Below, one piece after another: positions 8,312 through 64,000 of a DNA stretch of 64,000 nucleotides. Source of the stretch: Candidatus Methanoperedens nitratireducens (GTDB lineage: Archaea > Halobacteriota > Methanosarcinia > Methanosarcinales > Methanoperedenaceae); assembly GCA_020724545.1 (NCBI GenBank), contig DYGR01000009.1, positions 1 to 64,000 of the forward strand, written 5' to 3'. Numbering within the stretch: position 1 is the first letter of the stretch; every line of letters begins with the position of its first letter. The notes below the pieces were generated by a model that saw only the letters and a program-made list of their open reading frames with translations, was not told the DNA's origin and did not search any database. Position numbers and translations under genes: made by a program.

Positions 8312-9583
8312 TTGGAGACCAGATCATACAATCTAAATAAGGGCGAGGTTCTACTTGTAAGAGGCCCGGCAGCAGTCAGGGCTGAGAGCAAAGGCACCTC
8401 TGTTCTGGGTATTCGTATAGAGGTGGGCGATAAGATCGTTGTGAAGAAGAACAGAGTTCTGCCATTTGAGGCAGATGAGAATGGTACTCTGATACAGGTG
8501 ATCCTGGGCGATAGAGGGGAGAGCTGGATAACCCGTGATAGAGCTGGTATGAGAGTATGGAGTGATTTAGAGGAAAGTATCTTTACCAATCTAAAATCAG
8601 GAAAAAATAAACTAATGATAATAGGGGAAACCGATTCAGGGAAATCTACCCTGACATCCTATCTCGCCAACATAGCCTTAATGAGAGGTTTAAGAGCTGC
8701 GATCATAGATGGTGATATAGGTCAGGGCGACCTGGTACCACCGGGCTGTACAGGAGCTTCGGTTGTAAGGAATAAGATCTACGACCTCAGGGATATAAGA
8801 GCGGATATCCTGGGCTTTGTAGGATTTACCTCCCCTTCCCTTCTATCAGTCAGAGATCTGATAATAAAAAGAATGAATGAGCTTATTTCTTACCTTGAAG
8901 AAAGGGAGTATGACCTGTGCATAATAAATACTGATGGCTATGTTGCCGACGGGGGTATGGATTACAAGGTCGATATGATCCGTGAGCTTAAACCGGATAT
9001 TATCATTTGCTTTAAAGAGATCGATAAAGAATTGCTAGAAAGGCTCAAAGGTTTTGATAATCCCCCTGTAGTGATCCCTGCAGATAGGCCTGAAGGTATT
9101 GTTAAGAGTATTTCCCAGAGAAGTGAGAGAAGGCTGAGCCAGTATTTTCGATTTTTAAAAGACGGAAAGGATTTAAGCATTGACTTAAAGAAGATCAGGC
9201 TGAGCTTTATGGGGGATCTTTATGAGCATAACCTATCTGATCTTGAATTAAAAGATCAGGGATTTTCATTGCCTGCGGCGGGGTTTGCAAAGAGAGCTGA
9301 TAATAAAATAATCGCATTTAGATCAAATATGGAGGATGTAGTAGAGATATTTGATAGATCTATAATATTCAGTCATGGCAGTTTAAGGGGAATGTTCGCA
9401 GGATTGGGTTCTGGTGATGATGTATCTGGCTTTGCCCGGATAGCCAGATTGCATCCGGATCAAATAATAACTCTAAATACGAATCTTAAAGGCAAATTCG
9501 ATACTTTGTTCTTGAGCACCATAAGAATCTCTCCAGATCTAAAAACTGAAGCCATATTGCCTGTTGTAAGGAGAGGCTGGTAG
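8312..9583 (+). CDS. Clp1/GRC3-like polynucleotide 5'-hydroxyl kinase
   Basis: Archaeal member of the Clp1 group, which phosphorylates 5'-OH ends of RNA (or DNA) with ATP. After an N-terminal beta domain of about 95 residues comes the P-loop GETDSGKST (near residue 107), then AIIDGDIGQGDLVPPG, the Clp1 lid/metal region, and CIINTDGYV as the Walker B-like strand. The C-terminal 130 residues form the third Clp1 domain (RIARLHPDQIITLNTNL). Start is a TTG at 8312; no better ATG exists nearby. 423 residues. It converges with the next gene with no spacer (stop codons abut at 9583/9584). Exact substrate not known. Confidence 0.8.
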   Translation: METRSYNLNKGEVLLVRGPAAVRAESKGTSVLGIRIEVGDKIVVKKNRVLPFEADENGTLIQVILGDRGESWITRDRAGMRVWSDLEESIFTNLKSGKNKLMIIGETDSGKSTLTSYLANIALMRGLRAAIIDGDIGQGDLVPPGCTGASVVRNKIYDLRDIRADILGFVGFTSPSLLSVRDLIIKRMNELISYLEEREYDLCIINTDGYVADGGMDYKVDMIRELKPDIIICFKEIDKELLERLKGFDNPPVVIPADRPEGIVKSISQRSERRLSQYFRFLKDGKDLSIDLKKIRLSFMGDLYEHNLSDLELKDQGFSLPAAGFAKRADNKIIAFRSNMEDVVEIFDRSIIFSHGSLRGMFAGLGSGDDVSGFARIARLHPDQIITLNTNLKGKFDTLFLSTIRISPDLKTEAILPVVRRGW

Positions 9584-12500: not shown

Positions 12501-13357
12501 AATATCTGGCCCATCTCTTTGATATATTCTATCCCAAGCTTTGAAGAGAGCGATTGACTGATAGACAGAACCATTCTTCCTTTGTCTATATACTGCGGCT
12601 GCACAAAAGGAAATAGATGCACTGAGATGACATAGAGAGCCAGAAGACTTACGATCAAAATATACATGCCTGTATCGAATTTCTTCCATATCAGGGCAGA
12701 TAATATAAAATAAGATATAGAAAAAAATATCAAAAACATATAGGTGCCAGTATGTGTAAAACCCAGTGAAAATACAAGCAGACCTGCAATCAGAACATTA
12801 CTAAACGTGGGCCTATTTATGGATAGATATATGATTGCCATCAGAAACACTGCAACAAACCTGCCTGTGGAATAGTTTAACATACCCATTGTTATGACAG
12901 GCATGGAAAGCAGGAATATGCATGCCAGAATCGCCTTGTTTGTTGATAGAAGCAGGCGATGGGCATATATATAATAAACAGAGATCGATACAACCAATAG
13001 AATAAGAGGCAGAATATAGGCAAGCTCTTGAATCCCCATTCCTGTGACTTTCATCACTATGGAGCCAAAAAACCAGAGACCAAACGGGTAATCATACAGC
13101 AACTGCTCTTCTATAAAGGATTTTTCATAAAATTCGAACAGGGAATTCGAGTCTACCATTCTTAGCGTGCTGTACATATGTGTATATACATCTGTGCCAG
13201 AAGGAGAACGGAATATAAGCGTGGGGACTATGTATGCAATAATTATAACCGCTAAAAGAAAATAAATTAAATACAGTGTCTCTCTTGTTACTGTCCGACC
13301 AGAAAAAGGCAGATTAACAGGTCTATTAAATAAGCTCTTACTAACTCCCATCACCAT
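9584..13357 (-). CDS. Giant GT-C-like membrane protein with polysaccharide-deacetylase-like and PEGA domains
   Basis: 1257 residues. The first 470 contain about a dozen hydrophobic helices; the first outer loop carries SPSGTDVYTHMYST, an acidic motif placed as in GT-C glycosyltransferases and oligosaccharyltransferases. The outer part (from about 480) starts with a beta-rich domain; between about 930 and 1120 it resembles a polysaccharide-deacetylase barrel (AVFWWNAADIGNPDYLDEVV, then a SRGMSFTTPDTEA ending), but I do not see the usual catalytic Asp-Asp/His-x3-His pattern. The C-terminus is a PEGA repeat (GEHRIRAEKPGFISKDYE). A role in building or modifying surface glycans is inferred from this architecture. 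Lipid-linked sugar donors would be the expected substrate. No operon partner; the next gene upstream diverges. Confidence 0.65.
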   Translation of the reverse strand: MVMGVSKSLFNRPVNLPFSGRTVTRETLYLIYFLLAVIIIAYIVPTLIFRSPSGTDVYTHMYSTLRMVDSNSLFEFYEKSFIEEQLLYDYPFGLWFFGSIVMKVTGMGIQELAYILPLILLVVSISVYYIYAHRLLLSTNKAILACIFLLSMPVITMGMLNYSTGRFVAVFLMAIIYLSINRPTFSNVLIAGLLVFSLGFTHTGTYMFLIFFSISYFILSALIWKKFDTGMYILIVSLLALYVISVHLFPFVQPQYIDKGRMVLSISQSLSSKLGIEYIKEMGQIFYDRIFVANNFIYVIFWSCLIFVIGRSALSIRSRIESADHINPLAIPVIGSIKNVSHSIVTTPFWLGPVHTLLSIFGVFKLDQKGKCIALSLVLTSLFPGALQSEEGTGSLRQIYFLFLIIPISSAAGFYYILPAINKYSNNKIKKSFAAIFVILLFLSLIFAPIIGNLYYQPTITGTRSEIDNLMWLSTVGNSTEGVPGFAYRERIDLYANKLTPGVRSGSEMKRYLNNLKNVYFSEGAEVYIKDLRSFNINYIISSQRILKGFNEPGTSLSVDSNKQLDKIYSSDNNFGIYKYVAPPAPIKNPNPQRSGLRFEDNAPEIKDSGSAYLIENEFYKVKLSEASPRIMYIGTRTKNFLGEGGIYDTIGISWRGAYKDKYAYYDIGDLKYPYISVDNNEITYRTAIRDESNTENWATLIVRYIFYEKAIQRDITVANDWVNLDDYLSMYVTLSSTVFAPLSDFEFNQVGYKEENSVYKKIYPSQDTVVLRDKKINQIYLNESSTGLFIKYSDLKPYPTRMLYRGSTAYQYASVSMDSRYSLSPAESADITQYFSVGDKPTATNNMVYYTSISPYLYSDARIPVVLTGYLSQYSNAEYSSNIYGKLQDYNLIYNEVIKPGDKTSFQNGINHIGYADLFDKSVYKSQSDQNDEIKKVKALGVNGMTFRGSKYNMDTIKVLSDNNVLFAQALTVTPPFMEFYREGLRHPKSAYYQGEKTGVVLIPVTLPVSAVLRPESNVEDTFSSWRETLDSVADDGGMAVFWWNAADIGNPDYLDEVVELIEYSKSRGMSFTTPDTEASHFRSLNRVYTEATRGVDYAILNISNYNSEDVTGITYRLQLPVLNDSCPYYAVNGRISRQEMKYGDCMLYVSTDLMGNEQKQVTIEPDYTRKEFDLDFSGVYEGNAIIKVRDSEGAPVDDANIYVDGRNVKSNPDGEVEVLIRRGEHRIRAEKPGFISKDYEIVVKGRVYKIAGLLR

Positions 13358-46042: not shown

Positions 46043-49000
46043 TTAGCAATACAATTTATATCCGCATTCCCTGCAGGCACTCTCATTTTTTGTTTTTTTG
46101 AATCCATGCTCGTAATCGTATGCGATCTGCTTTGCAATTTCAATCATACTTTCAATAGCTATATTATCAAGCGCTCCTATTCTTGAGTTACCGGCGCTCT
46201 CATATTTTCCATCCTTTAATTCGAATGTCCTCGGAGCAGTAAGTGCCAGCAGTTCGAGTGTGAGCTTTTTCACTTTTAATTGCGGATGGATATGCTCAAG
46301 ACCCCGGGCATAGAGTAAGAGCTGTTTTGAACGTTCATCAGGACCGGGTTCATATTTCCCGGTCTTGTAATCGATAATTTCCACATCGTTCTGTGTCCCG
46401 GGAATTTTATCAACTCGATCAATGAATCCCTTGAAATTAAACCCGTCAAGATGTACATTGAACCGCTGCTCAACCATCAGGTTGTTCGCAATTGTGTTCC
46501 TGTTGCGCTCCCAGAATACATCAAGCGCTTCGGTTGCTGCCTTAAGATTGATCCCTTTCCATTGCGGTTCCTTCGCAACATGATCCCTGATTTTGTATAA
46601 CTGCTCCTTTGTTGTTATTTTTTCACCCACGGCATTTTCAAGAACCTTGTGGATAAAACTCCCCATGTTCATGGCTCCTGTCGAGTCCTCCGAGGCGCGG
46701 GTGGGCATCCTGAGGAGTTCTGCTAGTTCATACTGCCTGGGACAGTTCGCATATGTATTTATCGAGGTCACACTAAAGGTCATACCTGCAGGATTGAATT
46801 TTAAACCGTTTTTATTCTCTTTTATCCTTGCAAGAATATTGTCTGCATCTTCTGAAGGGTCTATTTTTGGCCAGTTAGAATCAATAAATTCCTTGAAAAC
46901 CATTGTTTTTCCATGTCTCAATGCCTGATACAGGAGCGTATTTCTCATTATTTCATTAAGATCTCCTGCGTCCAATAACTCAATGATAAGTCTTTTACGC
47001 ATGGCTTTTTCTCGCTCAAGCGCGCTATCTTTTACCATCTCCCGGACTTTGATCCCGGTATCCCTCGCATAGGTAAGGTCTCCGGCAGTGATATTCCCGC
47101 CCGCTCTCCAGTTCTCATACCCGATATCGGATAAGAATTCTGACGGCTCTTTTTCATCCCCGCCATATTTTGTCGCTAATGTCAGGAAAAGATGATCTTT
47201 TGCTCTTGTAAATGCGACATAGGCAAGCCGTCTCTCTTCCTCCTTTTTGATCTCTTTTTTGCGCTCCCTGACCGCTTTGTCAATATCGGTGATTGATCTG
47301 TCCTCGAAGAGATCACTATACTGCTCCATTAATTCTGGCGGGATGAGCGGCTCTACACCGCCTCGATATAGAGGGAATTTATCTTTTGCAAGGTTCGTGA
47401 GAAATACCGCGCCAAACTCCAGTCCTTTTGCCGCATGTATCGACATGAGATTTATAGCATCCTCGCTTTCGATCCTTGCAGGCGGAGGGTTGCCGTCCAT
47501 CTCATCGAGTATCTCAAGATAATCTATGAAAAGGCTGGGGTCTTTTCCATGGAACTCCTCAAAATTCCTGGCCAATTCATAAAGCTGCCTCAGATTTAAA
47601 AGAGCTTCACGGCTTCGTATAGTATCATGATGTACAAACTGCCTTGAAAGACCGGATTGGTCATATACCTCAAGGATCAGGTCCGATATGTCGAGATTCT
47701 TCTTTTCACAGAGCGACTCTATCCGCTTTTTTACATTGCCAGTGGTCTCAAGACCGCTTCTTGTTAGCCTGAGTTCATCGATATGATGGTAAATGGCTTC
47801 CTGAAATGAGACATATGTTCTCTTGATAAATTCTCCGATCCTTATGGAATCTTCCTGACTCAGGGCATTGTTATAATGGAATATCCTCCACCATGCTTCT
47901 GTTCCCCGCGCGGTGGGATGAGAGATGTTGTTGATGACATAGAGATAGGCCAATGCGGTCTTTATTTCTGGCTGCTTCATGAAATCCGTATCATCTTTGA
48001 CCCTGAATGGAAGACCCCGATTCTCAAGAGCATGTCTTACCTTCCGCCCCTGGGCATGCGTTCTGTATAATATGGCGATTTCAGATGGCAGGGTGCCCTG
48101 TGAAAGAAAAGCCTCGATTTTCTCTACTATGGCTCTTGCTTCTTCATTCTCATCTTCTGCTTCGATCATACAGACGTTCTCCCCTTCTATATCCTTGTGA
48201 TTTTTAAGGAGCTGGCATTCATGCATATTTTCTTCTGAATAGTTCTTTTCTATAAGGGTATGGGCTACTCTTAGTATCTTGTTGGTAGACCTGAAACTCA
48301 CATCCAGTGATATGATGTCTTCTGGCTTTAGCTTGAATTGTTTCCTGAACTCCTCTATGTTATTGGTGTACGCCCCACGGAATGCATATATCGTCTGGTT
48401 CGGGTCTGCTACCACTGTAATGTTCTTATTCGCTGCAGTGAGTTTTTTGATCAACTCGAACTGGACATAATTCGTATCCTGGAATTCATCAATGATGATA
48501 TAGCGGAATGTGTCGTTCAATTCCTTCGTGCCGTACATATCAAGATAGGCAAGGGCGATCCTGTTCAGGTCGCCATAGTCCAGGGCATTTATTCCAGATT
48601 TCTTTTCCTCGTATTTCTCCCAGGCTGATATGAATTTCGAATATTTCAGGTATTCCTCATATAAGTCAATGAATTCAGCATATCTTTTTTTCTCTGCCTG
48701 CTTTGCCTTCTTATCCTCCTTGTCCTTAAATGTCTTGAGATGAAAAGTGTTTAGCCTGAATTTGAATTCGCGATACAGCTCCTCCCAGTTATCCGCATCT
48801 TTTTTGATATCCTGAACGCTTTTCTTAAGCTTTTCAAGATATTTTTTGAAATCCTCGATTGAAATATTGAGGTCTTTGGCTTTTGAGATTGTGTTCGCAT
48901 ACCTGCTTGCGTTCCTCGCGTCCACTCCAATCTCCCTGTATATGAAAATAGCAGAATCGATCTCCTCGAATATCTTGAAGTCCACAGGGACTCTGCATCT

Positions 49001-49300
49001 GTCAGCATTGTCGCGGATAAGTTCAGCGCAAAAAGAGTGAAAAGTCCTGACATATACTTCTTTTCCCTGAAGGAGTTTCTCGATCTTTTCCCGCATGTTC
49101 CTGGCAGCTTCCCTGGAGAATGTGAGCGCAAGGATATGTGATGGGTCGATACTTTCTTTCTCCACCATGTATGCGATCTTGGCAGTGATGGTCGTTGTCT
49201 TTCCAGTTCCAGCACCCGCAAGAATCAATTGCGGACCTGATATGCGTTTTATAGCTTCTAGCTGGCGCGGTTTTAGGTCTGAGAGCAAGGAGTTCAGCAA
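46043..49300 (-). CDS. UvrD/AddA-like superfamily 1 helicase with C-terminal RecB-type Fe-S nuclease
   Basis: 1085 residues. Motor: LAGAGTGKTTTITAK (Walker A, near residue 32), YIIIDEFQDTNYVQFE (Walker B), DVSFRSTNKILR, then SIHAAKGLEFGAVFL and VAFTRAKDHL. The last 280 residues are a PD-(D/E)XK nuclease of the RecB/Cas4 type: FIDRVD, EIIDYKTGK, and cysteines in YANCPRQYELAE and SACRECGYKLYC, which would hold a [4Fe-4S] cluster. It combines helicase and nuclease as in AddA, for DNA end processing or defence. Transcribed away from the BREX genes, with a 153-base gap between. Confidence 0.88.
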   Translation of the reverse strand: MLNSLLSDLKPRQLEAIKRISGPQLILAGAGTGKTTTITAKIAYMVEKESIDPSHILALTFSREAARNMREKIEKLLQGKEVYVRTFHSFCAELIRDNADRCRVPVDFKIFEEIDSAIFIYREIGVDARNASRYANTISKAKDLNISIEDFKKYLEKLKKSVQDIKKDADNWEELYREFKFRLNTFHLKTFKDKEDKKAKQAEKKRYAEFIDLYEEYLKYSKFISAWEKYEEKKSGINALDYGDLNRIALAYLDMYGTKELNDTFRYIIIDEFQDTNYVQFELIKKLTAANKNITVVADPNQTIYAFRGAYTNNIEEFRKQFKLKPEDIISLDVSFRSTNKILRVAHTLIEKNYSEENMHECQLLKNHKDIEGENVCMIEAEDENEEARAIVEKIEAFLSQGTLPSEIAILYRTHAQGRKVRHALENRGLPFRVKDDTDFMKQPEIKTALAYLYVINNISHPTARGTEAWWRIFHYNNALSQEDSIRIGEFIKRTYVSFQEAIYHHIDELRLTRSGLETTGNVKKRIESLCEKKNLDISDLILEVYDQSGLSRQFVHHDTIRSREALLNLRQLYELARNFEEFHGKDPSLFIDYLEILDEMDGNPPPARIESEDAINLMSIHAAKGLEFGAVFLTNLAKDKFPLYRGGVEPLIPPELMEQYSDLFEDRSITDIDKAVRERKKEIKKEEERRLAYVAFTRAKDHLFLTLATKYGGDEKEPSEFLSDIGYENWRAGGNITAGDLTYARDTGIKVREMVKDSALEREKAMRKRLIIELLDAGDLNEIMRNTLLYQALRHGKTMVFKEFIDSNWPKIDPSEDADNILARIKENKNGLKFNPAGMTFSVTSINTYANCPRQYELAELLRMPTRASEDSTGAMNMGSFIHKVLENAVGEKITTKEQLYKIRDHVAKEPQWKGINLKAATEALDVFWERNRNTIANNLMVEQRFNVHLDGFNFKGFIDRVDKIPGTQNDVEIIDYKTGKYEPGPDERSKQLLLYARGLEHIHPQLKVKKLTLELLALTAPRTFELKDGKYESAGNSRIGALDNIAIESMIEIAKQIAYDYEHGFKKTKNESACRECGYKLYC

Positions 49301-50055: not shown

Positions 50056-51942
50056 ATGTCTATAAATCTTAGGGTAGAAGACCTATTTAAAAAAGATATC
50101 AGAAGAGATATCGATGGGGTTATCAAGGTAGATAAATACGATGAAGATAGCGTCTACACAGAACTTGAGGAATATGTGGTTACGCAAGAGTCATTGAAAC
50201 ATCCTGATAAGATCCAGGATGTCGATAAAGAGTTCGAGGATTCCATAGTCATAGGCGGCAGAGTTTTTAACAAAAAGATCAGGCAGCAGAGAGAGCGGCT
50301 CATCAGGGAGGTTAAAGAAAAAGGGTACGACCAGGTTATAGATGAGGTCACCTACACATGGTTCAATCGTTTTGTTGCCCTGAAGTTCATGGAGGTCAAC
50401 GGATACCTTCCTGTGAAAGTGTTTTCCTCGGTTGAGTCGGGCAAGCAGGAGCCTGATATTCTCACAAAGTCCCTGAGCCTGGATTTTTTGAATATTGACA
50501 GGGGAGCTGTCATCGACCTGAAGTCTGCGGGTAAGGATGAGGAGCTCTACAAGTACCTTACACTGAGCCTGTGCAATTATCTCAATAAGATCATGCCGTT
50601 CCTGTTCGAGAGCATTGAAGATCATACTGAACTTTTATTCCCTGATAAGCTGCTGCATACTGATTCTGTCCTGAGTGACTTAAACGGCATCATCAAAGAG
50701 GAAGATTGGAAGGATGGAGAAGGGTATATTTTCGATTCTTCAGGACCTACAGCTTTTTTGAAAGATGAATCAAATATGGAATATTTGTGTTCTTTACTCA
50801 ATACAAAAATCTCTGATAGAATTCTAAGTATTATTACACCAACAATCCACTTTAACAACGGAGTTCTACGTTCTTTTCCTATAATGTTTTCATCCTTAAA
50901 TGAAACTAAATCCCACATCAACTCCCTCACTCAATCATGCATCGACATCTCCAGAGAAGAATGGTACTCCCGTGAAACAAGCTGGGACTTCAGGAAAAAC
51001 GAACTCCTGCACCTCAAAACATCGAACAGGCTCAAAGACGCATACGACAGTTACTGCTCATACTGGAAAAAGAAATTCCAGAAGCCCCATGCAAATGAAG
51101 AGGAGCTCAACCGCATCTTCATAGACATCTACGACCTTGCAGATGAACTCACGCCGGATGTGCCGCTTGAGGACATTACCATCCTGAAAGATGAATCTGA
51201 GATCAAGGACGGCGAACTTGTATTCAAAAAGGATGTCATCATAAAGCAGTTCATTTCCTATGCAGTGGGCTGCATGTTCGGCAGGTATTCTCCTGATAGG
51301 GAGGGACTCATCCTTGCGAATAAGGGGGAGACTATTAAGGATTTCATAGCAAAAGTTCCGGCGCCGTCATTTGTGCCTGACGATGATAACATCATCCCGA
51401 TACTTGAGGATGAGTACTTTAAAGATGACATTGTATCCAGGTTCAAGGAATTCCTCAAAGTGACATTCGGAGCAGAAACCATTGCCGAGAACCTTGATTT
51501 CATAGCAGGGGCACTTTCAAAGTCGAAGAAAGGCGGCGAGTCATCTGAGAAGATCATACGGGACTATTTCCTGAGATCGTTCTTCAAAGACCATGCCAGG
51601 ACTTATAAGAACAGACCTATTTACTGGCTTTTCACATCTGGTAAGGGCAGGGGATTCAACGCGCTGGTGTATATGCACAGGTATGATAAGACCACGCTTG
51701 CCAAGATGAGAACTGATTACCTGCTCAAGCTTCAGGACAAACTTGATGCCAGGATGGGTATGCTGTCATCTGAGTCAACCAGGGATAAACAGGAGAAAGA
51801 GAAGCTCAGTAAACTGATGGAGGAACTTGCGGCATACGATGAGAAGCTGAATAATAAGGCGCTTGCTTATATTGATATTGACCTTGATGATGGGGTTGCG
51901 GTGAATTACGCGAAGTTTGAGGGGCTGGTGGAGGGGATATGA
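50056..51942 (+). pseudogene. BrxC-PglX chimera: BrxC N-terminus joined to PglX lacking its methyltransferase core
   Basis: One open frame of 628 codons from the ATG at 50056 (GGTGA at 50046). Residues 1-49 are the start of BrxC (VEDLFKKDIRRDIDGVIKV, ELEEYVVTQESLKH). From about residue 50 (50203) the sequence is PglX: RQQRERLIREVKEKGYDQVI, TYTWFNRFVALKFMEVNGYL, up to KEEDWKD at about residue 220. It then jumps (50710-50724) to the PglX C-terminal part YIFDSSGPTAFLKDES, LLNTKISDRIL, and runs to the normal end DLDDGVAVNYAKFEG. Missing are the BrxC P-loop ATPase (about 1150 residues in complete BrxC) and about 570 residues of PglX with the SAM and NPPY motifs. Both joins keep the frame. As it stands it cannot be a working BrxC or methyltransferase. 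Mis-assembly should be excluded. Confidence 0.82.
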
Positions 51943-51969: not shown

Positions 51970-53031
51970 GTGGCTATCTTGAGTGATAAAATCGATGTGC
52001 TTGAATATGAAAAGGATTTTTTTGAGATCGTTCAGCTTATAAAGAAAGCAAGATATAATGCATTAAAAAGTATAAATCTGGAACTAATTAATCTTTACTG
52101 GCAGGTCGGAGAACACATCAGTAAAAAGGTGGAAAGTGCGGAGTGGGGGATAGGAGTTGTGGACAAACTTGCAGACTACCTGCACAGAACCCAGCATGAT
52201 TTAAAAGGGTTCAACCGCAGGGGGCTATACAGGATGAAGCAATTTTATGAGACCTATTGTGGAAATGAAAAAGTGTCATCACTGCTGACACAAATAAGCT
52301 GGACCAATCATCTGTTAATTCTATCAAAGACTAAAAGTATGGAAGAGAAAGAGTTCTATTTAGCACTAACGATTAAAGAAAAATATACTTCAAGGGAGCT
52401 GGGACGACAGATAGATAGCGGATTTTATGAGAGATATATGCTCTCCAATGCAAATGTGTCATCACTGGTGACACAGAATAATGCAGATATTGGTTCTACC
52501 TTTAAAGATACATATATTCTGGATTTTCTAAACCTACCACATCATTACTCTGAAAAAGATCTCCAGAAGGGGATTGTAAAAAACCTAAAGGAATTTATTC
52601 TGGAATTTGGTAAAGATTTCACTTTTGCAGGAGAAGAATACCGAATACAAGTAGGAAATAACGATTACTATATTGATCTATTATTCTTCCACAGGGGACT
52701 GTCGTGTCTTGTAGCCTTTGAATTAAAGATCGATGATTTCAAACCCGAATATCTTGGCAAGATCAATTTTTATCTTGAAGCTCTTGACCGTGATGTCAAG
52801 AAACCGCACGAAAATCCAAGCGTTGGCGTTATCCTCTGCAAAAGCAAGGATGAGGAAGTTGTGGAATATGCACTATCCCGCAACCTTTCACAATCTATGA
52901 TTGCAGAATACCAGACAAAACTCATCGAAAAAAAAGTTTTGGAACAAAAACTTCATGAACTATTTCTACTATCGGCGGACAATTTGGAAGATGAGGAGAC
53001 AGAACATACACAAGCAAAAAATGAGGTTTGA
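51970..53031 (+). CDS. DUF1016/YhcG-family PD-(D/E)XK nuclease-like protein
   Basis: 353 residues, apparently complete. N-terminal DUF1016_N part (INLELINLYWQVGEHISKKV, GFNRRGLYRMKQFYETY, ISWTNHLLILSKTKS) and a C-terminal nuclease fold with YYIDLLFFHRGLSCLVAFEL and KID, the Asp and Glu-x-Lys of the PD-(D/E)XK site. GTG start at 51970, ribosome site AGGTGG overlapping. DUF1016 proteins are common riders in type I restriction and BREX loci, with a probable role in DNA cleavage or repair. Unlike its neighbours it shows no deletion. Confidence 0.85.
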   Translation: MAILSDKIDVLEYEKDFFEIVQLIKKARYNALKSINLELINLYWQVGEHISKKVESAEWGIGVVDKLADYLHRTQHDLKGFNRRGLYRMKQFYETYCGNEKVSSLLTQISWTNHLLILSKTKSMEEKEFYLALTIKEKYTSRELGRQIDSGFYERYMLSNANVSSLVTQNNADIGSTFKDTYILDFLNLPHHYSEKDLQKGIVKNLKEFILEFGKDFTFAGEEYRIQVGNNDYYIDLLFFHRGLSCLVAFELKIDDFKPEYLGKINFYLEALDRDVKKPHENPSVGVILCKSKDEEVVEYALSRNLSQSMIAEYQTKLIEKKVLEQKLHELFLLSADNLEDEETEHTQAKNEV

Positions 53032-53033
53032 TT

Positions 53034-53627
53034 ATGGGAGATATAACGCGCAAACCATTTCCATCAGGGGATCTCGAGGCATTGTGCAAAGTTCTGGCGG
53101 ATACCAATAATGGATTAACTGGAAGTGAGATTGCTCACACATTAGCACAAATAGCTTTTGCTAATACAAAAGGCAGATGCTTTAAAAGAGTGGACAGCAG
53201 CAATCGCATAATGAGAGCGCAGGAGATCGCACATATGCATCTTCATTCCACAGGATTGAGCTGGGATAAATATCCTGTTCAAAATGCCAGCCTTGAAGAT
53301 ATTGATATTGAAAGGATTAAAAGGTATATACAAAAAGCAAAGGAAACCGGTAGAAAAAAGATAGGGGATGATGAAGATTCGGTGCAGGTTCTTGAAAAAA
53401 TGAATTTAATAATCAAAGGACAGCCCACATGGGCAGCAATTCTTATTTTCTGCAAAGAGCCGCAAAAAATTATCTCTCAGGCTGCGGTACACTGCGGAAG
53501 GTTCAAAGACGGAGATATCGTAGGTCGGTACTACAGGGAAAGGCACAGCATACATTCTAAGACGCCAAAGACGCCACAAAGACGCAATATTGACGCCAAA
53601 GACGCCAGAACCTTGATGAACTTATAG
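53034..53627 (+). CDS. Probably chimeric, truncated AlbA_2-type protein
   Basis: 197 codons from the ATG at 53034. Residues 1-38 (KPFPSGDLEALCKVLADTNN, GLTGSEIAHTLAQ) look like the start of an AbiJ/TIGR02391-like protein. From about residue 40 it reads as the AlbA_2 (schlafen-like) DNA-binding family found beside RecG-like domains: KGRCFKRVDSSNR, HLHSTGLSWDKYPV, LIIKGQPTWAAILIF, HCGRFKDGDIV. The conserved remainder (wing and C-terminal HTH) is missing; the end runs into a GACGCC repeat with unlikely residues. It therefore seems to be joined from two genes and cut at the 3' end, in the same style as the BrxC-PglX join. Confidence 0.55.
   Translation: MGDITRKPFPSGDLEALCKVLADTNNGLTGSEIAHTLAQIAFANTKGRCFKRVDSSNRIMRAQEIAHMHLHSTGLSWDKYPVQNASLEDIDIERIKRYIQKAKETGRKKIGDDEDSVQVLEKMNLIIKGQPTWAAILIFCKEPQKIISQAAVHCGRFKDGDIVGRYYRERHSIHSKTPKTPQRRNIDAKDARTLMNL
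53561..53607 (+). repeat. Short direct repeat GACGCCAAAGACGCCA
   Basis: Two identical 16-base copies at 53561-53576 and 53592-53607, each holding two GACGCC units, with a further partial unit between. They occupy the tail of the chimeric AlbA_2 gene and mark the point where its coding character is lost. Confidence 0.75.
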
Positions 53628-53643: not shown

Positions 53644-53991
53644 ATGATTGAATCTGGAGAACCAAATTCCGCCTGGTCTAAAAAAGGGGCTACTCTTAGT
53701 GATAAGTCCGCTCGAAAAGAATTTGGACTTACACAAGAGGAAATTATTGAGGGTATTAATGATGGCAAACTACAGTACCGCCATAATAATGTGTTTGGGA
53801 ACCCATATTTGAGGCTGGTTCGAAGTGAAGTAGAAGCATTTGTAGATGAAAAACATGGTAGCAACTACCTTAAGAAGAAAAAAATCAAGAAAGAGCTGGC
53901 ACAGATCAACAAGGAATTGAAGATGTTGAAAACTCAAGTTGCCTCCCTGGAACTAAGAAAAGCTGCACTGCTGTCAAGTCTTGATGAATGA
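53644..53991 (+). CDS. Small DNA-binding protein with helical tail
   Basis: 115 residues. N-terminal 60 look like a short HTH/excisionase-type domain ([40 protein letters not shown]), followed by a basic coiled coil ([20 protein letters not shown]). An AGAGAAAG purine stretch is just upstream of the ATG. Short regulators of this shape accompany defence loci; no further function visible. Confidence 0.6.
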
Positions 53992-54016
53992 ATATAACGT
54001 TAAGGGAGTCATAGAA

Positions 54017-54499
54017 ATGAAAAAAGAATATAATTGCAACTGTAAATCAGGATGTAAAAACAGTCGATGTTCCTGTTTCAAAAATCTTGAACCTTGTGAT
54101 GATAAATGTGGATGTGTTGAATGCCAGAATCCGCTTAATGGAATTGATGTTAAAAAGTATTCAACTTGCGCGCTTCAAAATATAGCTACTGTTAAAGCTT
54201 TATCACAGGAAAAATTAGATGAGGAGTATGAATTACCGTGTGGATGTGAGAAAGTCCAATTGAAAAATTTATTAAATGAATATGAATGCAAAGAATGCAG
54301 GACAGAGTATTGGTATTCATTTTGTTTGAACGACGTGGTTCAAGATGATTGTACATGGCATTGTAATAGATGTGGAGAATGTAGAGATTGGAGAGAATGG
54401 CATTGCGAAAGATGTAATAAATGTACATATGGAGTAACACTACCCTGTCAACACTGTGATAAAAAAGGACCTTATCGAGATTTGATCGGAATATGCTAA
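54017..54499 (+). CDS. Cysteine-rich protein with CXC-type domain and second zinc-binding module
   Basis: 160 residues from the ATG at 54017 (ribosome site GGGAG at 54004; a TTG/ATG start near 53981 is less likely). The first 35 residues, [18 protein letters not shown] then [13 protein letters not shown], have the nine-cysteine layout of the CXC (tesmin/MSL2-type) domain, known for binding DNA through zinc clusters. The second half has further paired cysteines and histidines ([41 protein letters not shown]) suiting a RING/CHY-like multi-zinc fold. It overlaps pglZ by 7 bases, so the two are co-translated. Role in BREX unknown. Confidence 0.65.
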
Positions 54500-59197: not shown

Positions 59198-59417
59198 GCA
59201 TTTTAAGTGTTAGATTGTCAGAAATTGATGATCGGTATTGAAATCTTTCGAAAAGTGGTCGAAGTGTCGTAAGAAAAACTAATGAAAAGTAATCCAGTAG
59301 AAAAATCGATTCTTTATAGCAAGCATGATATAGAAATAACACTAAAATAACTTAGTAAAATTAATATATTATTAATCTGTATCTAGCGATAATTTAGCCT
59401 ATATATTTCGATAAGAT

Positions 59418-62400
59418 ATGAATAATAAATTATCAAATACTAAAATTGAACAACAGTTGCAAGGTGCCAGACAAAATTTATTAGACCTTACAATGCGTAA
59501 CCGTCTTTTAAACTTCAAACCAACAAATGCAAAGACAATAAAAGTCATTGATGGGATTCCAGGCGATATATATGATATTCTGGTCTTTCAAGAAAAGAAA
59601 ATGGAATTCTCTCCCATTAATAAAAGGAAAATTCCTCAATCTAATGCTGGGGAAGCCGACCCAAATAACCGTTTTCTTCAAACATCATTAGAAACCGATG
59701 ATCTTAAAAAGTATCTTTTCAAGATAAACTACCAGACACAATCTGTTCTAGAAGAACAAGGATATACTATTCTTTATTTGGCATTGGGTTTCCTGGAGTG
59801 GACTGAGAACCAAAACTCTATTGAATCCAGACTAGCTCCATTGATCCTTATTCCCGTCGAATTAGAACGTACCAAGATCGATATGTCTTTCAAGGTAGTT
59901 TGGACAGGAGAAGACATTTTCACTAATATCTCAATTCAAGCAAAACTTCTTGAACAAAATATCTCGTTACCCGATTTTGAGATGCCAGAAATTAAATCGG
60001 ATATTGATGAATATTTCAAACGCGTAGCTAAAGCCATATCTAATATGGCAAAATGGCAGGTTTTGCCCGATATTCACTTAGGTTTTTTCAGTTTTACGAA
60101 ATTTGTAATGTACAAAGACCTCGATTTGAAATCTTGGCCAGAAGGAAAATCTCCTGCTACCCATCCACTGATAACAGCTATATTTGATCCATCATCGGCT
60201 AAACAATCTATTTCAGAATTTTCAGAGAATCAAGTAGACGAGAAACTTAATGCGCGGGATCTCTATCATATAATGGATGCGGATCCTTCTCAAATCGCAG
60301 TAATCGAAGACGTTAAAACTGGGAGAAATCTGGTAGTGGAGGGACCACCAGGTACTGGGAAGTCACAGACTATTACAAACATCATTGCTGAACTTCTTGC
60401 AGCTAAAAAAACGGTACTATTTGTAAGTGAAAAAATGGCAGCCCTTGAAGTCGTGAAGAGCCGTCTTGATCAGGTGGGTCTTGGAGATTTCTGCCTTGAA
60501 CTACATAGTCGAAAATCAAATAAAAAAGGTGTTCTTGAAGAACTTCGAAGAACAATAGAGAGATCCCCGCCAAAATCGATATCTATAGAAAATGAATTCG
60601 ATAAATTGGATTCTCATAAGTCTGAGTTAAATAATTACGCTAAGGCATTACGAGAGCCCTTAGGAGAGATAGGTAAATCTCCGTTTATGCTATTCTGTAT
60701 TAAGGAGAGGATGTTGCGCCATTTTGAAAGGGCCAGGAAACCTATGCCACAAATTAAATTCTCAAATGTAGATAAATTCCAGCAAAAAGAATGGACTAAT
60801 GCAATATCGACGCTCTCGGATCTAGCAGAAATATTACCTGCGGTAAAACCTATAGGGAAGAATCCCTGGAAAGGATGCGAACCCTCAATGGTGCTGCCAC
60901 CTGATGAACGGGAAATTGAAATACTGATTAACGAGTGCAAAAATTCTGTAATTGAACTTGAAATGGCAATTGATAAGCTAGTGGAAGCATGTGAAATGCA
61001 ACGACCCGCTACCTTAAAAGAGGTGCTAAATGCTATCTCGGCAGCAGAAGTCATAGCTATATCAAAGCCAATCGATAGAGATGTTCTAAGAAACCCGGAG
61101 TGGAATGAAATAAGTGAGACGACAAAAACACTAATTCAAAAAGTTGAGGAATTTCAGAGACAACTTCCTATGATAAATTCCAAATTCAAAACGCTTGCTT
61201 TTGAAAAAGATATAGATTCTCTTCTTAAAGAATATAAAGAACTTTCAGCCAAGTTTTTCATTATTAGAATTTTAAACAATAGATACCGTCCTTTAAAACA
61301 TGAGATTTCCTCCATTTACAAGAATTTCCCACCTAAAGATTCAAAGGAAATTATTTTTGATCTAACAACATTAGTAGTTTTTAAACAACTAAGGGAAGAG
61401 ATTCAGAAGGCTAATCAAAAAGGTCGATCACTTTTCGGCTCACACTGGCGAGGAGCAGATAGCGATCCTCAGATAATGTATTCTTTTTCAAAATGGATTG
61501 TTTCTTTCAGGCAACAGTTACTGAATAAAGTGTTCAATGAAAAAATTGTAGATAGAATAAGTACTGGCATATCGAAGGAACAAATAGAAACTGCAGCGGA
61601 GAATGTTGATAAAGCCTCAAAGCGTTTTGTAGAAAAACGTGACCTTTTGGCAAATCGATTAGGAGTAAATTATGAAGCGATTTTTGGAGGACACGCTGAG
61701 GATATTTTACTAAAGAATTATACCTCACGTTTGGAATTATGGAAAGATGGACTCTGTAAACTTCAACGATGGGCACAATTTTCTAATGTTCGAAAAACCT
61801 GCCTCAATACTATTGCCTATCCTATCGTTGAGGCAATAGATTCAGATCTTCTTGAATCAGAAGACATTATTCCCTGCTTTGAGGGAAACTTTGCGGATGA
61901 ACTACTAAGGTGCGCTTTTGTTGAACGACCAGTCTTGGCAAATTTTGTCGGAGACCTACATGAGAAAAAAATCAAGAATTTTATGGATCTTGATCGTGAA
62001 TTAATTACTCAGAATAGACAAAGACTTGCATATATTCTTTATCAGAACCAACCGCGTCTTTCGGGCGGAGCTTCACGAAATTCAGAAGCTGGAATACTTC
62101 TGAGTGAATTTAGCCGCAAGCGTAGACATATGCCTATTCGTAAACTTATGTCTCTTGCTGGTGGATTGATTCAAAAAATCAAACCATGTTTTATGATGAG
62201 TCCACTTTCAATAGCTCAGTTTCTTGACCCAAAGACAGCTCGTTTCGATGTGATTGTTTTTGATGAAGCAAGCCAAGTCAAACCAGAAGATGCACTTGGT
62301 GCGCTTTTACGCGGGAGTCAAGCAGTTGTAATTGGAGATACACGTCAATTGCCTCCTACAAATTTCTTTGATCATATCATAGAATCAGATGAGAGCGAGG

Positions 62401-64000
62401 GTCCAGAAATAATTGCTCCAGTTTCAGATATTGAAAGCATTCTTCATTTGTGCAAAATTAGTTTCCCATCAAAGACTTTGCGCTGGCATTATCGAAGCAA
62501 ACATGAGTCTCTGATTGCCGTATCTAATCAAGAATTCTATGATAATCGACTGGTTATCTACCCGTCGCCAATTAATAATGTTGAACATCTGGGTTTGAAA
62601 TTCATCCACTCACCCGCTACAGTTTACGATCGCGGCAAGAGTTCCGTGAACCGAATGGAAGCCAGAATTGTCGCAAAAGCAGCATTAGAACATTATCAAA
62701 AATACCCAGGTAAAAGCCTTGGTATTGGGACATTCAACATTAAGCAACAACAGGCGATTTTAGAAGAGGTAGAACAGCAAATAAGAGAGCATCCCGATAT
62801 GGAGGAATTTTTTAAGGCGAATCAGAATGAGCACTTCTTCGTAAAGAACTTAGAAACCATACAGGGTGATGAGCGTGATGTAATCTTTCTTAGTATAGGA
62901 TTTGGATTCGATGAATTAAAGCGCCTTACCCACAATTTTGGACCTCTAAACCAAGATGGTGGTGAGAGGCGTTTAAATGTCTTGATATCTCGCGCCCGAG
63001 AAAGATGTGTTGTTTTTTCGAATTTCAAGGCGGGAGACCTATCGATTGACGCGAACTCATCATTTGGCCTGAGAGCTTTGAAAGTATTTCTTGACTATGC
63101 TGAAAATAGAAAATTGCACACTATCGAATCAAAAGGTGAAGATACAGACTCACCATTTGAAGATTCTGTTTATGAGTTTCTTAGAGACCATGGTTATGAC
63201 GTCCGCAAGCAGGTGGGTTGTGGCGGTTACAGAGTAGATCTAGCAATTGTTTCCGATAAATCCCCAGGTCGTTATATATTAGGTATCGAATGTGATGGTG
63301 CTAAATATCATTCTTCTCCAGTTGCAAGAGATAGAGATAGGCTTCGCCAACAAATCCTGGAAGGATTAGAGTGGAATCTTTATCGAGTATGGTCAACCGA
63401 TTGGTACCGGAACCGCGCAGATACAAGTCGTAGATTGCTAGAGGCGGTTGAAAACGCTAAAAAATTGGGAAATAAATCTCCAGAGGTTATTCAAAGGCAA
63501 GCTCCACTTGTAAAAGAGATTCAAAAGGAGATTAAACGCGAAGAAAGCCTGGGAAAAAATACCCCGGATAACACTCTTGATGATATTGTTCCTTATTATG
63601 AAATGTGTACATCTCTTGAGATCAACACACAAATTGCGTTAGATGAAATACCTGTAGATCAACTTGCGAAGGCATTTATTAAGGTCGTAGATTTTGAAGG
63701 ACCTGTTCATTTTGATGAGGTTGTTCGACGAATTCGTTCTCATCGTGGTTTAAAGCGAACAGGTACTAAAATTCATGATGCCATTAGCAGAGCTGCAGCA
63801 TTTGCTGAACGTAAGAAAGCTGTTATTCGACGTGGTAATTTCTATTGGTCAACCAGTAATCAGGTTATCAAGGTGCGCCACCGTAGCGGTGATTCACCTG
63901 CTAAGATAGAGTTAATATGTGATGAAGAGATCGCAGAGACAATAAACTTAGTTCTAAAGCATCAGTTCGCTACTATGCAAGATGACTTAATTGTTAAATC
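59418..64000 (+). CDS. DUF4011 superfamily 1 helicase with Vsr-like nuclease and DUF3320 domains (3' partial)
   Basis: Open for 1527 codons to the right edge of the window. Domains in order: DUF4011 region (ARQNLLDLTMRNRLLNFKP, residues 1-290), Walker A VEGPPGTGKSQTITNII (near 307), VIVFDEASQVKPEDA (near 947), WHYRSKHESLIAVSNQEFY, the ISRARERC motif, a Vsr/MTES_1575-type nuclease (YRVDLAI, LGIECDGAKYHSS, LYRVWSTDWYRN; about 1255-1330) and DUF3320 (DFEGPVHFDEVVRRIRSH; about 1395-1450). COG1112 group, which also includes the helicase of Mokosh defence systems. Probably the last gene of the BREX-linked island. The gap 59198-59417 before it is AT-rich with no gene. Confidence 0.88.
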   Translation, partial: MNNKLSNTKIEQQLQGARQNLLDLTMRNRLLNFKPTNAKTIKVIDGIPGDIYDILVFQEKKMEFSPINKRKIPQSNAGEADPNNRFLQTSLETDDLKKYLFKINYQTQSVLEEQGYTILYLALGFLEWTENQNSIESRLAPLILIPVELERTKIDMSFKVVWTGEDIFTNISIQAKLLEQNISLPDFEMPEIKSDIDEYFKRVAKAISNMAKWQVLPDIHLGFFSFTKFVMYKDLDLKSWPEGKSPATHPLITAIFDPSSAKQSISEFSENQVDEKLNARDLYHIMDADPSQIAVIEDVKTGRNLVVEGPPGTGKSQTITNIIAELLAAKKTVLFVSEKMAALEVVKSRLDQVGLGDFCLELHSRKSNKKGVLEELRRTIERSPPKSISIENEFDKLDSHKSELNNYAKALREPLGEIGKSPFMLFCIKERMLRHFERARKPMPQIKFSNVDKFQQKEWTNAISTLSDLAEILPAVKPIGKNPWKGCEPSMVLPPDEREIEILINECKNSVIELEMAIDKLVEACEMQRPATLKEVLNAISAAEVIAISKPIDRDVLRNPEWNEISETTKTLIQKVEEFQRQLPMINSKFKTLAFEKDIDSLLKEYKELSAKFFIIRILNNRYRPLKHEISSIYKNFPPKDSKEIIFDLTTLVVFKQLREEIQKANQKGRSLFGSHWRGADSDPQIMYSFSKWIVSFRQQLLNKVFNEKIVDRISTGISKEQIETAAENVDKASKRFVEKRDLLANRLGVNYEAIFGGHAEDILLKNYTSRLELWKDGLCKLQRWAQFSNVRKTCLNTIAYPIVEAIDSDLLESEDIIPCFEGNFADELLRCAFVERPVLANFVGDLHEKKIKNFMDLDRELITQNRQRLAYILYQNQPRLSGGASRNSEAGILLSEFSRKRRHMPIRKLMSLAGGLIQKIKPCFMMSPLSIAQFLDPKTARFDVIVFDEASQVKPEDALGALLRGSQAVVIGDTRQLPPTNFFDHIIESDESEGPEIIAPVSDIESILHLCKISFPSKTLRWHYRSKHESLIAVSNQEFYDNRLVIYPSPINNVEHLGLKFIHSPATVYDRGKSSVNRMEARIVAKAALEHYQKYPGKSLGIGTFNIKQQQAILEEVEQQIREHPDMEEFFKANQNEHFFVKNLETIQGDERDVIFLSIGFGFDELKRLTHNFGPLNQDGGERRLNVLISRARERCVVFSNFKAGDLSIDANSSFGLRALKVFLDYAENRKLHTIESKGEDTDSPFEDSVYEFLRDHGYDVRKQVGCGGYRVDLAIVSDKSPGRYILGIECDGAKYHSSPVARDRDRLRQQILEGLEWNLYRVWSTDWYRNRADTSRRLLEAVENAKKLGNKSPEVIQRQAPLVKEIQKEIKREESLGKNTPDNTLDDIVPYYEMCTSLEINTQIALDEIPVDQLAKAFIKVVDFEGPVHFDEVVRRIRSHRGLKRTGTKIHDAISRAAAFAERKKAVIRRGNFYWSTSNQVIKVRHRSGDSPAKIELICDEEIAETINLVLKHQFATMQDDLIVK

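Follow-up and report, generated by a model that had tools for sequence, protein, structure and literature searches.

A type 1-like BREX locus of Candidatus Methanoperedens, probably inactivated by serial deletion, with remnants of brxC and pglX in one open reading frame

Results

In 64,000 nucleotides of Candidatus Methanoperedens nitratireducens DNA, the whole of which is called the window here, a BREX system has probably been inactivated by several separate deletions, which would have welded the remnants of brxC and pglX into one ORF (our own estimate of the probability, ∼0.8; Table 1). The join is real in the assembly; the preferred reading is that a BREX island is undergoing ordinary gene decay through successive deletions, with an instructive pattern. 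As in type 1 BREX (brxB-brxC-pglX-pglZ-brxL), brxB, pglZ (type A), and brxL are in order and match their families over the full length, and pieces of BrxC and PglX occupy the usual places. Unlike in type 1 BREX, the AAA+ ATPase BrxC (residues 1–49 are all that is left), the N6-adenine methyltransferase core of PglX, and BrxA (PF08849) are missing.

Table 1. Features of the BREX locus in the window.
Feature	Positions	Strand	Basis or remark
brxB, full length, 196 aa	49454–50044	+	PDLC02463 1–192/193, E 2.8e-71; PF08747
Fused ORF	50047 (GTG) or 50056 (ATG) to 51942	+	stop-free; 631 aa counted from GTG
BrxC stub, residues 1–49	50056–50202	+	profile matches and L014 comparison
Joint J1, brxC codon 49 to pglX codon 32	50202–50203	+	∼3500 bp absent versus L014, in frame (DNA alignment)
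PglX N-terminal piece, L014 residues 32 to ∼204	50203–50718	+	
Joint J2, ∼540 PglX residues missing, in frame	50709–50721, about 50714	+	position approximate
PglX C-terminal piece, L014 residues 744–1148	50719–51942	+	
DUF1016/YhcG nuclease-family gene	51970–53031	+	PF06250, PF17761; L014 has two other genes there
Composite ORF, pieces of two adjacent L014 genes	53028–53627	+	L014 alignment
pglZ type A, full length, 869 aa	54493–57102	+	TIGR02687, E 1.7e-261
brxL, full length, 681 aa	57152–59197	+	TIGR02653

Composition of the fused ORF

The ATG of the fused ORF lines up with the brxC start of a syntenic relative, L014 (G009:C134; Ca. Methanoperedens sp. nzgw24), and the frame stays open upstream to the GTG. 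The N-terminus matches BrxC models at their start only (PADLOC PDLC02471 positions 2–45, E 5.1e-15; NCBIfam NF033441 positions 2–48, E 1.4e-12). Residues 5–49 match the solved BrxC structures 9zll, 9zn5, and 9zdx, and identity to residues 1–55 of L014 BrxC is 84%, in an alignment that overruns the join by a few residues. The remainder is PglX, matched by NF033452 in two stretches (E 3e-186) and by the PglX/BrxX structures 8zek, 9ewz, and 8c45 at the N-terminal region and the C-terminal part. The combination of a BrxC start with PglX lies far beyond chance. The sequence-only reading had proposed just such an in-frame fusion, and profiles and L014 alignment place it in one open ORF of the assembly. 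The 49 residues assigned to BrxC were matched by PDLC02471 and NF033441, the DNA comparison with L014 sets the onset of PglX, put at about 50203, to a join at 50202/50203, and the original brxC start region is indeed kept. That reading spotted the ORF correctly but under-described it, having missed the internal interruption of PglX.

L014 encodes a complete BrxC (1183 aa) and PglX (1148 aa) in a locus composed of brxB, brxC, pglX, an ATPase-helicase pair, two further genes, a cysteine-rich gene, and pglZ, the names of the non-BREX genes being putative and given by reading rather than by family search. The order brxB-brxC-pglX, on which the earlier interpretation had rested, is thus seen in an intact relative. 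At the DNA level, the window matches L014 blockwise, and genes adjacent in L014 are joined here in one frame with the intervening stretch gone, as in a deletion-derived fusion. At J1, ∼3.5 kb were deleted, with brxC codon 50 the first and pglX codon 31 the last to be lost. The BrxC ATPase was lost with it, as had been claimed: the P-loop GFFGSGKS stands at residue 74 of L014 BrxC, beyond the 49 residues retained, and does not occur in the fusion.

A single deletion had been thought to explain the ORF. Its in-frame loss stood, but the one-deletion model is ruled out because PglX is cut internally as well, again in frame, and three joints follow downstream. PglX breaks off after ORF residue ∼224 and is picked up again at PglX residue 744. 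The deletion at J2 took PglX residues ∼204–743, which comprise the SAM motif DPAKGSGH (301), NPPY (466; both in L014 PglX numbering), and most of the recognition region; the position of J2 is approximate, since the recognition region of the window differs from that of L014. A motif scan found no P-loop, SAM, or NPPY pattern in the fused ORF. In 8zek and 9ewz, the regions at about 63–212 and 778–1191 align to it; unlike a PglX/BrxX methyltransferase, it has neither DPAxGSGH nor NPPY nor a counterpart of the ∼565 residues between (213–777).

An intact brxC elsewhere in the genome, a check suggested with the earlier reading, was sought across the assembly (G000; 88 contigs, completeness 99.96, contamination 5.44) and not found: the BrxC family matches the stub only, with nothing above the NF033441 cut-off. 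Nor did this genome hold a second copy of the fused protein, which matches its own locus only, or another PglX core, L014 PglX matching just the two kept pieces. BrxA (PF08849) is absent from it and present in one of 10 genomes searched; G009, the genome of the intact relative, also lacks it.

Neighboring genes

The composite ORF behind the DUF1016/YhcG gene opens with the beginning of one L014 gene and continues with two pieces of the adjacent one, the first of ∼20 bases and the second longer. Its joints near 53152–53154 and at 53173 are in frame, and that at 53521/53522 is out of frame.

Immediately upstream of brxB and divergent from it, a UvrD-type helicase with a PD-(D/E)XK nuclease domain is encoded (46043–49300, minus strand). 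Just before pglZ lies a small cysteine-rich protein (53981–54499) with sub-threshold CXC-domain matches. Such a protein likewise precedes pglZ in L014/L074, L075, and L076, and may be a lineage-specific BREX neighbor. A large DUF4011/DUF3320 protein (59418–63998), its frame still open at the window end, is related to the anti-phage proteins ProA and Hhe but reaches neither of the two NCBIfam cut-offs. Partial copies of the pglX 3′ end, ∼30–240 bases long, recur in L014, L015, L068, and L021. In L014, two of them (reverse-complement 8516–8753 and 12734–12971) bracket two genes inserted after pglX; the copies may indicate a site at which defence genes are inserted repeatedly.

Scars in related genomes

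A query of the BrxC stub plus the PglX N-terminal piece matched 34 of 185 genomes of the order. Among these 185, the fusion itself is present in the window's genome alone, and its conservation in relatives is rejected on this basis; elsewhere, the BrxC and PglX parts were separate matches, or just one was present. No stretch of viral contigs matched any of six peptide patterns, and 264 plasmid records matched, with all of the matches listed (20) annotated as pglX. Two candidates for a PglX lacking its core, L027 and L032, are full-length pglX genes.

The L014 block matched 18 of the 31 genomes of the genus at E ≤ 0.001, some of these matches being short stretches upstream of brxB or single neighboring genes. 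Fragments of brxB (leader included), brxC, and pglX were found in five of the 30 other genus genomes (G003, G008, G017, G022, and G024); what G003, G024, and one of the G008 pieces have of brxB is mostly leader. G003 and G024 have one scar in common. G030 carries a single 70% match to brxC, plus BrxA, and G009 is the intact genome. One control block (window 59300–64000) gave long matches in three of the 30 other genomes (one piece in G007, two in G023, and three in G015), without a scatter of short fragments; for both blocks, fragment counts are lower bounds, as mostly nine candidates were scored per genome.

G008 also carries an ORF of 271 aa (L015 5308–6123, minus strand), a composite in which a start of other origin is joined to the C-terminal part of PglX; this start presumably belongs to an AIPR-type protein. 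In several Methanosarcinales loci (L068, L020, and others), PglX is encoded by two genes, with frames of ∼560–630 aa.

Sequence overlap and reading frame at the joints

Ten joints could be placed for an overlap test: J1 and J4 of the window, six in G008, and one each in G017 and G022. The same alignment failed to locate a parent for J2, for the inner J3 joints (two), and for the scar shared by G003 and G024, and these were left out. Overlaps, determined by BLAST extension with mismatches counted, were 13, 0, 9, 1, 12, 4, 0, 0, 5, and 3 bases. Their mean of 4.7 bases compares with 0.33 in simulated joints (n = 398, 13% substitutions, no indels; P = 0.001 from resampled sets of ten). As a group, the joints thus overlap more than by chance, as expected for microhomology, with single joints ranging from 0 to 13 bases and zero overlap at three of them (J4 and two in G008). 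At J1, ∼1 exact base is common to both parents at the break, and TGATAAG lies two bases further in both, in the same register, which makes pairing of an imperfect short repeat plausible.

Of the 11 coding joints, seven keep the frame (P 0.039); with J1 set aside, six of 10 do so (P 0.077, calculated by hand). The G008 brxB/brxB joint was excluded, its left side being leader sequence of brxB; before this exclusion, the count was eight of 12 (P 0.019). The brxB piece at the G017 joint has a net length change of one base. The in-frame excess could point to selection, as a hint rather than a result.

Microhomology-mediated deletions are reported, in the available text on another archaeon, Haloferax volcanii (PMC7521656). 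The joints described here resemble that case in overlapping more than simulated ones, and differ in that some overlap imperfectly or not at all. Ku was matched in 20 of the 31 genus genomes. It is present in G003, G008, G017, and G024, and no match was found in G000 or G022, so that no clear link emerges and Ku-dependent joining is rejected as a general cause.

Age and constraint

Relative to L014, the two PglX pieces have dN/dS values of 0.119 and 0.14, compared with 0.147 in the BrxC stub and 0.074 in brxB; pglZ (versus L074) and brxL (versus L083) gave 0.10 and 0.049, respectively. Silent and replacing codon changes specific to the window number 11:5 and 22:8 in the PglX pieces, versus 12:6 and 17:10 in L014, the comparison for the second piece resting on two relatives. 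Two sets of small numbers point in the opposite direction: the last 193 codons, where G008 served as the third sequence (12:6 versus 4:1), and the 49-codon BrxC stub (1:3 versus 6:0 in L014). As amino acid changes are not clearly in excess in the PglX pieces, the loss looks recent. This implies either deletions that are recent relative to the L014 split or a constrained product, and the data do not separate the two.

Discussion

The type 1-like locus would have been hit by several separate deletions, one removing nearly all of brxC with the first 31 pglX codons, another excising the methyltransferase core of PglX together with most of its recognition region, and others leaving three more joints in the next genes (ORF 53028–53627). 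They probably arose through illegitimate recombination between short repeats that are in part imperfect. As far as the available text goes, each of brxX, brxB, brxC, and brxZ is needed in E. coli for both protection and modification, whereas brxA can be dispensed with (PMC6326788). BrxC is described, likewise in accessible parts of the source, as binding BrxB:PglZ via the AAA+ domain in its ATP-bound state, K78 being the Walker A position (PMC13326643). As these contacts lie beyond the 49 kept residues, the locus should, given the E. coli data, neither methylate nor restrict, and a tether to BrxB by the BrxC stub is unlikely. The fused protein would most likely have no BREX activity, and brxB, pglZ, and brxL would be uneroded leftovers. 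PglZ has been presented, in the title of a report, as a metal-dependent nuclease pairing with BrxB (PMC12205998).

An error of assembly, in which pieces of a locus intact in the organism were wrongly joined, is an unlikely explanation. The number of contigs and the estimated contamination leave some room for it, but five separate joints within ∼3.4 kb would all have to be wrong, at 0–13 common bases with mismatches. Moreover, similar scars occur in other assemblies, one of them shared by G003 and G024, and the missing parts are nowhere else in this assembly. In a reading of a different kind, PglX was already split into two genes in the ancestor, as in L068; J2 would then connect separate genes, and the ORF would be made up of three. 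Such a history would be another form of decay, not an alternative to it, and we consider it doubtful. Split pglX does occur in several loci of the order, and the N-terminal piece is equally near L068 and L069 (86 and 84%) and L014 (85%). Against this, the C-terminal piece is far nearer the one-gene L014 (85%) than the split L068 (66%). The C-terminal piece resembles the second pglX gene of L068 (60% identity). Together, the two genes of L068 retain the methyltransferase core, which the ORF described here lacks.

It is very unlikely, in our judgment, that the fused protein owes its retention to a function, such as that of a scaffold or brake formed by a PglX without methyltransferase and working alongside BrxB, PglZ, and BrxL. 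An open frame of 631 codons and PglX pieces without a clear excess of amino acid change speak against decay, as a retained gene would look alike; the kept brxC start region, the low dN/dS of both pieces (0.119 and 0.14), the full-length brxB, pglZ, and brxL, and the share of coding joints in frame (7/11) fit retention as well. However, the fusion occurs in one of 185 genomes, most of the divergence may be older than the deletions, and the few changes in the BrxC stub lean toward replacement. The AAA+ domain through which BrxC contacts BrxB lies past the stub, to judge from the accessible text (PMC13326643), and the next ORF is broken likewise. A function for the fused protein is therefore unlikely, and serial deletion in a decaying island is the preferred reading.

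A more general proposal goes well beyond this reading and is highly improbable as a whole: Ca. Methanoperedens would erode BREX islands mainly by large deletions guided by short homology, with little-changed pieces joined, often in frame, and some of the composite ORFs would be translated and maintained, for instance to supply BrxB, PglZ, and BrxL with a PglX partner that has no methyltransferase. In the literature searched, no work treated BREX and Methanoperedens together, and among the matches listed, none described a fusion of the BrxC/PglX type.

For annotation, the fused ORF is a warning: with 621.6 bits, it passes the cut-off of the NCBIfam PglX model (500) despite having no methyltransferase core. 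The fragments in related genomes provide a natural record of deletions in an uncultured archaeon. The locus itself would represent an archaeal BREX system caught during its loss, with ATPase and methyltransferase gone and the other core genes still there.
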